A stretch of 64,000 nucleotides of DNA, taken from assembly GCA_016195985.1 (NCBI GenBank), contig JACPYP010000003.1, forward strand, positions 1-64,000. The letters are read 5' to 3'. The translations under genes were made by a program, and so were the position numbers. The stretch comes from Acidobacteriota bacterium (GTDB lineage: Bacteria; Acidobacteriota; Holophagae; Holophagales; Holophagaceae). Positions 56,816-60,255 of the stretch are shown here, piece by piece. The notes below the pieces were generated by a model, which ran no database searches, was not told the origin of the DNA, and saw only the letters and a list, made by a program, of their open reading frames with translations. Each line of letters begins with the position of its first letter. Position 1 is the first letter of the stretch.

Positions 56816-57196
56816 ATGCGCGTCTCGCTCTGCCTTTGCCTCGCCGCCGGCCTGCTGGCCGGAGAGCCCCCCCGGCCCGGACTGGACCGGGCCTTCCTCG
56901 CGCACATCCTCGCGGATTCCGAACAGGGCGCGAAGCCCTGGAAGACCTTCCGCGTCCCGGAAGATTCCGCCGCATCCGCCACGGTGGAAGTGGTGGGCGA
57001 ACTCACTCCCGCCGAGTACCGGCAGATGGCCTTCCAGGAATTCCTCGTCTGGTTCCGCGAGGATCTGAAACGGTTCTGGCGCGAGCACGGCGCCGGGGAC
57101 GCCGTGGCCGGCTGGGCCGAGGCCACCATGCCCGTGACCCGCTATGGCGGCAATCCCGTGCCCCAGAACGCCCCCCTGGGGCGGCTTGGTTTCTAG
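56816..57196 (+). CDS. small secreted hypothetical protein
   Basis: MRVSLCLCLAAGLLAGEPPRPGLDRAFLAHILADSEQGAKPWKTFRVPEDS.... Confidence 0.55.
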   Translation: MRVSLCLCLAAGLLAGEPPRPGLDRAFLAHILADSEQGAKPWKTFRVPEDSAASATVEVVGELTPAEYRQMAFQEFLVWFREDLKRFWREHGAGDAVAGWAEATMPVTRYGGNPVPQNAPLGRLGF

Positions 57197-57204
57197 CGCC
57201 GGTT

Positions 57205-57590
57205 TCTGGCTCGGGCCTCTGGGCTCTGTCTTCAAATTCGGAGTCAGGTAAGCAAGCACAACTTTGGCACCTATACCTGCGATGGCTTCCCTGATTGGGG
57301 AACCATCGTAGGCGCGGATGCCGAGCACACAACCAGGTTCCACGCCCATGAAGAGGTCGATGGCGTGACAACTCTCATGCGTTCGCCCAGGGCTAACCAT
57401 GAAGTCAACCGGTCGCCATGGGCATCGGCGATCAGGTGAATTTCCACGGAGAACCCGCCTCGCGCCCCATTTATAGCCCAGGGGAGGTGGGTACTATCCG
57501 GGTCAGAGAAACCGTTTCGCATTTCAGGGCAACGCCCTTATTTCGGTAGCATCCCCCATTCTCCCCACCTCATCACCAAAGTCGCGTCTA
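57205..57590 (-). pseudogene. IS5-like transposase remnant (left copy)
   Basis: Frames give IVDATLV, NGARGGFSVEIHLIADAHGDRLTSW and MGVEPGCVLGIRAYDGSPIREAIAGIGAKVV, broken by frameshifts; clearly related to 59161-59913. Confidence 0.75.
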
Positions 57591-57791
57591 CTATCGCGAA
57601 GATCAGCAGCATTCTGGAAAATCCAATTCTGTCAGTGTGTGAGTTCTCGATGAAGTGATTGCCAATTTGGATGGTATTTTGGGATGTGGCAGCAATTTGT
57701 TGCTAGACATGGACGCACGTCGTTAATAGACGCATATATCTGGTTGTTAATCCTTACTAAAGCTCTCCCATTTAAGCTTATAGTTAGGGTA

Positions 57792-57989
57792 TTAAGAGCT
57801 CGCCCCGCCCCTGCGCTTAGTTACCCAATAAACAATCAGTGTAGACACCAACCACAAGGCAATAACCAGTAGGAAGCATTGTTCCTTACGGAATCCATGA
57901 ACCAATACTGCGTAGAAGAAATAAATTACGAACCCGACTAGCATTGATGTCATAGTCTTGACTGTGGAGCTTAACTTAGTGGTAGTCAT
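57792..57989 (-). CDS. small membrane protein, hypothetical
   Basis: MTTTKLSSTVKTMTSMLVGFVIYFFYAVLVHGFRKEQCFLLVIALWLVSTLIVYWVTKRRGGASS; GGGAGG Shine-Dalgarno 5-10 nt upstream of ATG at 57989. Confidence 0.6.
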   Translation of the reverse strand: MTTTKLSSTVKTMTSMLVGFVIYFFYAVLVHGFRKEQCFLLVIALWLVSTLIVYWVTKRRGGASS

Positions 57990-58122
57990 GAAAACCTCCC
58001 TTGGGTGGAGTCTAATATCAACCGGCCACGGATGCAGCGAGCCGCTGAGCGAAGTCGAAGAAGCGAGAATAGGAGAAAGAGCGGAAAACCATACGGGGAG
58101 GGTCCTAGAATGAGTAGGAGTG

Positions 58123-58620
58123 TTAGGCGCGTTTGATAAGATGGACGGCGAGCACCGCGATAGCATTGTTAAAGACATGTGGGACTAGGGCAACTAAGTA
58201 TGCATATCTGAACCCCTTCTCGTGCCATGCAATGTATGAGCAGGACAGAAGGAAGAACATCCAAGCAGGGACAAAAAACCAGAGAAATCCGAACATCGCG
58301 TGGCCCAAGCCCCAAAGAACACCTGAAATTATTGCCACGCGTAACTTGCTAGTGATGAATGAAGATAGGATTGCAATGAGTAGGGCCAATAGAAAGGTTT
58401 CAATGATTGGGCTCAAAACAATTGCATTGAAGGCATCAAAAGAGGAGGAAAGATGGATCGTTGGAGCATATCGCTTTGGATCCATACGAACGATCCTGAA
58501 ACTCAACAACATCAATTTTCCCAAGCCCCAGCCTGGAAGAATGACCAACAAAGCAGTAAACGCACAGTAGCGCCAAAGCGGCCTATTTGTGTTGAACAGA
58601 AATTGGGTAAGACGGCTCAT
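58123..58620 (-). CDS. CPBP (CAAX protease/bacteriocin-processing)-like intramembrane protein
   Basis: IVLSPIIETFLLALLIAIL...VAIISGVLWGLGHAMFGFLWFFVPAWMFFLLSCSYIAWHEKGFRYAYLVALVPHVFNNAIAVL; E, H and HxxxN motif positions recognisable. Confidence 0.7.
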   Translation of the reverse strand: MSRLTQFLFNTNRPLWRYCAFTALLVILPGWGLGKLMLLSFRIVRMDPKRYAPTIHLSSSFDAFNAIVLSPIIETFLLALLIAILSSFITSKLRVAIISGVLWGLGHAMFGFLWFFVPAWMFFLLSCSYIAWHEKGFRYAYLVALVPHVFNNAIAVLAVHLIKRA

Positions 58621-58725
58621 CTAAGACCTATGAAGAGGCGGCTGTGGTTCTGGATCTGAGTACCGGATGAAGAACCAGCGATCGACATCTCCATCCCGAA
58701 TGAGATCGCGGGAAAGTGGTGTTAA
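58621..58725 (-). pseudogene. LanB/thiopeptide-type dehydratase C-domain fragment
   Basis: Frame not in ORF track: LTPLSRDLIRDGDVDRWFFIRYSDPEPQPPLHRS*; WFFIRYxDPxPHLRLR is the hallmark of the Lant_dehyd_C/thiopep_ocin domain. Confidence 0.65.
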
Positions 58726-58726
58726 C

Positions 58727-58933
58727 CGGCCGGACAATGCCTCGCCCCCTCCCATTCACTTCCACATGGCCGAGAAAAGAAGCCAGCAACGCCACTCCTA
58801 TGGCTGCCATGAAAATCCATAACAGCAGCCATGTCCAAGGGGGCGAAACCTTTACCAAGGCACGCCCTTCCTCCGCCTGAAGATAGTGCTTCAGAGCCTC
58901 TTCGCGAAACAGGTTCGGGTCTGGTTGATTCAT
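58727..58933 (-). pseudogene. HlyD-family bacteriocin-export adaptor, N-terminal fragment only
   Basis: MNQPDPNLFREEALKHYLQAEEGRALVKVSPPWTWLLLWIFMAAIGVALLASFLGHVEVNGRGRGIVRP, then homology ends and a LanB-like frame begins. Confidence 0.7.
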
Positions 58934-59160
58934 CGATTTTCTGGTTGGGGGAATAGAACCATTCTTGCAAAGATCACCAAAAAAGGCTCCAAAAACTCGC
59001 CAACAGAAGCATTTGAGGTTCTAAACAGCGTTTTGTTTATAATTTAATTAATTATTTTAATGTTTACAATGACATGCCTTCAAATTGGCAACGTGAACAG
59101 TCGAGAGGGCTTGGATTTTTGTCGAAGTGCTTACCCAGTGTGAATGCCTGTGAGGAGTGA

Positions 59161-59913
59161 ATGCCGCGAAGCCAACTCAATGATCGAGCCCGGGGCGAAA
59201 CTCGCGCCCTACTGCCGCCCGAATAAGGGCGACGAGGAAGACTGAGTCTGCTGAGTCACCCCTTCATCGAAACCATCCCCTGAAAACACCGAACAGGCAC
59301 CCCTTGCCGGGATCTCTCCGAGGCGTTCAGGCCCTGGGCTTTCGTCTTCACCCGTTTCAATCGGTGGAGCCAGGCTGGCGTCTGGCGGTGCGTTCTGGAT
59401 GTCCTCCGCGCTAAAACCGACGCCGAATGGGTGATGCTGGACGGAACTGTCCTCCGGGCCCATCAACACGCCGCTGGTAAAAAGGGGTGCCACACTCAAG
59501 CACTTCGGAGGTCCAGGGGCGGGTTCTCGACGAAAATCCACCTGACCGTCGATGCTCATGGCAACCGATTGGCTTCCTGGTCAGCCCCCGGGCACACGCA
59601 TGAGAGCCGCCACGCCATCGGCCCCCTCATGGGTGTGGAACCTGGTTATGCGCTCGGCGACCGCGCCTACGATGGTTCCCCAATCAGGGAGGCCATCGCA
59701 GGTATGGGCGCCAAAGCAGTGATTCCGCCGCATCCCCGTCGCAAAGACCCGGCCCACGATGACAGCCATCTCTAGAAAGCCCACCACGCCATTCAGAATC
59801 TGTTCGCGAAGCGGAAGCAATACCGCAGCCTCGCCACCCGTTATGACAAGACCATGCGGAACCACCGCGCCATGGTTGCCATCGCCTGCCTGCCCACATG
59901 GCTCGGTATTTGA
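59161..59913 (+). pseudogene. IS5-like transposase, full-length frame with three nonsense codons (right copy)
   Basis: 251-codon frame MPRSQLNDRARGETRALLPPE*...*KHRTGTPCRDLSEAFRPWAFVFTRFNRWSQAGVWRCVLDVLRAKTDAEWVMLDGTVLRAHQHAAGKK...GGFSTKIHLTVDAHGNRLASWSAPGHTHE...*KAHHAIQNLFAKRKQYRSLATRYDKTMRNHRAMVAIACLPTWLGI*; stops at 59224, 59281, 59773. Confidence 0.9.
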
Positions 59914-59922
59914 AAACAGACC

Positions 59923-60255
59923 CTAGCCGATCAGCTTCGGCAGCAGGTTGGCGGCCTGATCCCGGGCCAGGCGGGCGGCTTCGATGGCGTGGCGGGCCGC
60001 CTCTTCCGCCGACTGGCTGGGCGTGAGAAGGGCTTCGAGCTGGCCCCGCAGGCGCGCGGTTTCGCCTTCGGGATCCGCTAGGTGCTGCTGGGCCGCGGCC
60101 TCGAACACCAGCAGGAAGCATTGGATGGCGTCACAGGCCGTGGACACGATGGCGGCGCCGTGGCGGTGATCCACCTCCAGGGCCAGGGCCGCGGCCAGGA
60201 AACGGAGACCGTCCTCGAAGCGGGCCTGCAGGGAACCGGGGGGGCCGCTGCTCAT
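59923..60255 (-). CDS. hypothetical protein
   Basis: 110 aa helical protein, just downstream of purF on the same strand. Confidence 0.55.
   Translation of the reverse strand: MSSGPPGSLQARFEDGLRFLAAALALEVDHRHGAAIVSTACDAIQCFLLVFEAAAQQHLADPEGETARLRGQLEALLTPSQSAEEAARHAIEAARLARDQAANLLPKLIG

Follow-up and report, generated by a model that had tools for sequence, protein, structure and literature searches.

How a single membrane protein gene came to stand intact amid the wreckage of a lanthipeptide-type locus is the question raised by a small AT-rich patch in an otherwise GC-rich acidobacterial contig. The window, i.e. the whole stretch of 64,000 nucleotides analysed here, opens a contig of 145.8 kb, of which it covers the initial 64 kb, in a genome of 4.26 Mb (33 contigs) whose gene content suggests a Geothrix-like genus. 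An earlier note had interpreted the patch as the scar of a lanthipeptide/thiopeptide-like locus between two inverted IS5-like remnants, from which biosynthetic and export genes had been deleted while putative immunity or accessory genes were kept. That the patch is such a scar, of class I lanthipeptide type, is upheld below by HlyD and LanB homologies and by the two IS copies. The tempting story of retained immunity is corrected, as the one intact gene bears an integron recombination site.

An insertion and its IS5-like ends

The patch (57197-59922) is an insertion of ~2.7 kb found in the window genome alone among the genomes compared, between a 126-aa gene adjoining miaA on the left (56816-57196, plus strand) and a 110-aa gene adjoining purF on the right (59923-60255, minus strand). 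Same-genus loci were retrieved via the 110-aa gene, and 28 of them display both neighbours and were readable for comparison. In 20 of these loci both genes meet tail to tail, at most 40 bp apart; in five, ~107-306 bp separate them, and in three (L099 from G033, L104 and L111) an insert of ~1.3 kb does. Because the neighbours are mostly tail to tail in these loci, 57197-59922 is an insertion in the window genome. The insertion point also receives other inserts in relatives, including G033, the closest one, whose insert contains, as judged by eye, a serine-beta-lactamase/esterase-like ORF. The base composition first noticed was confirmed, with GC dropping from about 0.70 to 0.45-0.51 across 57500-59250. 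Seven features were delineated within the patch:

57220-57590, minus: left IS5-like remnant, internally deleted (84% identity to the right copy, inverted; outer end repeat)
57792-57989, minus: orphan small membrane protein, 65 aa (two TM-like stretches; GGGAGG 8 nt upstream of the ATG)
58005-58130, minus: decayed integron attC, R'' GCCTAAC intact, R' = ATTAGAC, most stem pairs broken (HMM and covariance model)
58123-58620, minus: intact CPBP/Abi-like membrane protein gene, 165 aa, probable integron cassette gene (PF02517 sub-threshold; relatives; stop in attC R'')
58627-58737, minus: LanB C-terminal domain fragment, Lant_dehydr_C positions 17-51, one frameshift (PF14028, TIGR03891, alignment to intact LanB)
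58727-58933, minus: N-terminal 69 residues of an HlyD-type export adaptor, truncated at the LanB junction (identity to intact HlyD proteins)
59160-59922, plus: right IS5-like remnant, transposase broken (DDE_Tnp_1 E 4e-9, longest ORF; outer end repeat)

The bracketing transposase remnants in opposite orientations proved to be inverted copies of one IS, sharing 207 bp at 84% identity and matching outer end repeats, although the left outer end lies near 57220 and not at 57205. Their 3' ends point outward and both transposase genes are broken. A third, partial copy of the same IS is present on contig C5 of the window genome, and a plasmid search returned no match to it. A candidate target duplication, CTAG, occurs on both sides of the patch, but 24 bp separate its left copy from the IS, and each copy runs into the stop codon of a neighbouring gene. 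With two inverted copies of one IS around a cargo of differing base composition, the patch resembles a composite transposon with IS5-family ends; it differs in that both transposases and most of the cargo are broken. Promoter and terminator scans gave scores not above those of shuffled sequences.

Fused fragments of a class I lanthipeptide-type locus

The HlyD fragment shares 61-65% identity with full-length HlyD from genomes of the sister genus (G065-G070; E down to 1e-26) and 46% with the intact HlyD of its own genome. It matches the NCBIfam model NHLM_micro_HlyD (E 1.6e-4), while none of the Pfam HlyD models covers the N-terminal part represented by 58727-58933. After GRGRGIVRP the fragment departs from the HlyD family, and from 58737 a separate frame encodes LSGRLTPLSRDLIRDGDVDRWFFIRYSDPEP, with a Lant_dehydr_C match above cut-off. 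This LanB piece spans about 37 codons and aligns to positions 17-47 of PF14028 (E 1.6e-7, or 8.6e-10 reading through one frameshift), with a score of 32.2 bits against a curated cut-off of 24.4, across 31 residues only; TIGR03891 gives E 1e-6, or 7e-9 with the frameshift read through. In the alignment, its spacing to the RWFFxRY motif is identical to that of the G065 and G070 LanB proteins, and the homology stops at codon GGT (58627-58629), immediately ahead of the CPBP start. The HlyD and LanB homologies share 11 bp readable in both genes, an overlap expected of a short-homology junction. Both homologies were recovered with Pfam or NCBIfam models: the adaptor N-terminus holds at its original position, whereas the LanB piece extends over ~58627-58737, 11 bp into the HlyD frame, instead of 58621-58725.

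Intact versions of both genes exist in the sister genus and in the window genome, which carries a LanB (1212 aa)-HlyD-C39-peptidase ABC-second ABC locus (L004, contig C18, 132-141 kb) as well as another full-length LanB (L005, C18:584 kb). LanB precedes HlyD on one strand in L004, in L038 (G033) and in L040 (G065), the two genes are divergent in G055 and G069, and G066, G070 and others display HlyD-ABC-ABC, with LanB absent within the fetched stretch. None of the intact loci compared has HlyD ahead of LanB in the same orientation, so that a single deletion within an operon of known order cannot yield the scar; loss of the interior of an L004-like operon was rejected on this ground, as LanB precedes HlyD there.

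Relative to class I lanthipeptide loci (LanB with PF04738 and PF14028, LanC, HlyD and C39-peptidase ABC), the patch displays clear homologues of HlyD, by its N-terminus, and of LanB, by its C-domain and above cut-off. It differs in that these are two fused fragments, in the reverse order of intact same-strand operons, accompanied neither by LanC nor by ABC genes. Since no precursor peptide homologue was found in the patch and the transporter set is reduced to the HlyD N-terminus, the patch is a remnant and not a working lanthipeptide locus.

A CPBP-like gene with relatives in lanthipeptide loci

Of the CPBP-like membrane protease placed by the earlier note at 58123-58620, the open frame of 165 aa was retained, but the match to PF02517, although aligned over the full domain, is below cut-off (E 1.3, 9.8 bits versus 22.4), and the protein is therefore classed as CPBP-like only. 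The ORF length is weak evidence on its own, since 19 of 1000 shuffled versions of the patch contain an ORF as long, and the relatives of the gene argue better for its being real. Like CPBP/Abi (Rce1-like) proteins, the hydrophobic product is of the multi-pass membrane type, keeps the first Glu of motif 1 (E74), WGLGH107 (WxxxH, for the FxxxH motif) and H148xxxN, and has relatives beside LanB and precursor genes; it differs from them in lacking the second Glu and the Arg of EExxxR (it reads ETFLLA), in its sub-threshold profile score and in its cassette format, described below. E74, WG..H107 and PH148, which we take to fit the first glutamate and the histidine motifs of CPBP proteases as described for Rce1, are conserved in three relatives, which have HxxxD in place of HxxxN and likewise lack the second Glu and the Arg. 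A structure model built on a four-sequence input had a mean pLDDT of 60 and no PDB match.

These three proteins (two in G065, one in G070) were the only relatives detected at E up to 1e-6 among 93 genomes of the class. Two of them adjoin homologous GG-leader peptides (40% identity over 73 aa, E 2e-8) in sister-genus lanthipeptide loci (L043, 8265-14012; L041, 8823-9736). The gene order in G070 is GG-leader peptide, LanC (PF05147, E 6e-34), CPBP and LanB; in G065 the CPBP-like gene follows the GG-leader peptide, and the ABC genes some 4 kb away belong to a LanB-HlyD locus interrupted by an insertion. The other G065 copy (3.80 Mb) is not at a lanthipeptide locus. No relatives were found in plasmids, nor among 85k species by a pattern-seeded search sensitive to close relatives only. 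The association of CPBP proteins with RiPP genes, put forward in the earlier note, is thereby documented for this very subfamily, members of which neighbour genes for LanB, LanC or a GG-leader precursor. Because two of the three relatives adjoin homologous GG-leader peptides, a role in lanthipeptide immunity or processing is plausible, and one of these is the most likely present or past function of the protein. Immunity would be one option among several, as immunity, leader processing, receptor and signalling roles have all been reported for CPBP proteins in bacteriocin loci (PMC9298176).

An integron attC site at the CPBP stop codon

The 112-bp stretch directly behind the CPBP stop matched a second place in the window genome, and a search from that place returned 28 matches in the genome, 25 of them at E below 1e-3 and partly clustered. 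These align to R'' GCCTAAC ... R' GTTAGGC, and RNAalifold on ten other sites revealed attC-like pairing of both arms. An HMM and a covariance model, both trained without the window site, recovered it at E 3.8e-12 (nhmmer) and E 1.8e-9 (covariance model, sole match in the window). Within the genus, 44 of 47 genomes have this attC type, versus only 7 of 30 other genomes of the family, and two intI-like sequences adjoin attC sites (C18:629 kb and C25:0.1-0.5 kb), both broken. Acidobacterial attC models have already been published (PMC8352920), so this type of integron was known before.

The window attC has the same orientation as the CPBP-like ORF and begins exactly at its stop, with TAA inside R'' at +4 as in 10 other attC sites of the genome. 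At the other end of the gene, the start reads TTAGATG, compatible with the cassette end TTRRRY, but the left boundary is C|TTAGAT where integron crossover expects G before TTRRRY. The arrangement is thus that of chromosomal integron cassettes with acidobacterial attC, an ORF followed at once by a genus-type site with the stop inside R''. It differs from them as a lone cassette outside any array, with a degenerate attC, the crossover base C and no integrase nearby. The CPBP subfamily was not found as an integron cassette in any other genome searched. By format and by homology, the gene has two credible affiliations, to integron cassettes and to lanthipeptide loci.

A candidate attC end upstream of the CPBP start (GCCGCCTCTTCATAGGTCTTAG) was rejected, as 2067 of 11284 background segments score equally well and the stretch fits the frameshifted LanB tail better. 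The gene of the 65-aa small membrane protein begins about 20 nt behind attC. Its ORF and strong ribosome-binding signal are as first described, but it is an orphan, for which neither 77 genomes nor plasmids yielded a convincing relative. Nothing ties it to lanthipeptide loci, its nearness to attC is its sole affiliation, and its proposed status of lanthipeptide accessory remnant is not supported. A second attC behind it (CCCTAAC) received no support from the HMM or the covariance model.

Origin of the patch

The reading that we favour, with a slight inclination, is that a lanthipeptide-type CPBP cassette joined lanthipeptide debris within an IS-bounded insertion; the insertion, the attC and the homologies are established, and we infer the order of events, the entry of the cassette and the function of its protein. 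The patch would be a decayed composite-transposon-like insertion, with its two inverted IS5-like ends, between the tail-to-tail genes. Its cargo would comprise the remains of a locus of class I lanthipeptide type, with the HlyD start fused to the LanB C-domain piece across 11 bp, and one integron gene cassette, the intact CPBP/Abi-like gene ending in the genus-specific attC, which would meet the LanB remnant near its own left boundary. The attC at its stop codon suggests that the CPBP gene may have arrived as a cassette, and a gene in the format of a mobile integron cassette can persist here for reasons other than retained immunity. The crossover base, the degenerate attC and the lack of other cassettes of this subfamily count against such an arrival, as does the position of a lanthipeptide-type CPBP gene beside a lanB fragment, also expected of a gene born in the locus.

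In a rather doubtful alternative, close to the original proposal, an IS-borne lanthipeptide locus lost its biosynthetic and export genes by deletion but kept the CPBP gene for immunity, possibly together with the small membrane gene; attC would be the remnant of a separate cassette that abuts by chance. The CPBP relatives do belong to lanthipeptide loci in G070 and G065, and the HlyD, LanB and CPBP pieces are contiguous and in one orientation. Against this alternative, the attC starts right at the stop codon of the CPBP gene and has the proper orientation and register, the HlyD-LanB order occurs in no intact locus compared, and no precursor peptide was found in the patch. A chance assembly, in which an ordinary cassette protein unrelated to lanthipeptides landed beside lanthipeptide debris in a junk-collecting site, accords with the many scattered attC sites of the genome, the other inserts at this point in three relatives, the G065 copy outside any lanthipeptide locus and the many roles of CPBP proteins (PMC9298176), but appears improbable given that two of only three relatives detectable in 93 genomes of the class lie in lanthipeptide loci.

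Implications and attC sites across the genus

If the CPBP protein of the favoured cassette reading conferred immunity to a lanthipeptide, integrons would offer bacteriocin immunity a way to move, a subject on which a limited full-text literature search retrieved no paper. A bolder version, which we regard as unlikely, is that an immunity or processing gene of a lanthipeptide locus became an integron cassette, so that bacteriocin (cross-)immunity could spread via chromosomal integrons; the cassette would still touch the lanB fragment, possibly a trace of its birth.

More broadly, the finding points to large attC collections throughout the genus. The genus-specific attC is abundant, several genomes having at least about 100 first-look candidates, and in the window genome the sites are scattered over C18 (63-68, 487-490 and 630-631 kb), C26 (439-441 kb) and other contigs. 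BrnA-type antitoxins are typical integron cargo, and the attC cassette ORFs near L088 7948 (minus) and L094 8566 (minus) appeared, by eye, to be BrnA-type antitoxin-like.
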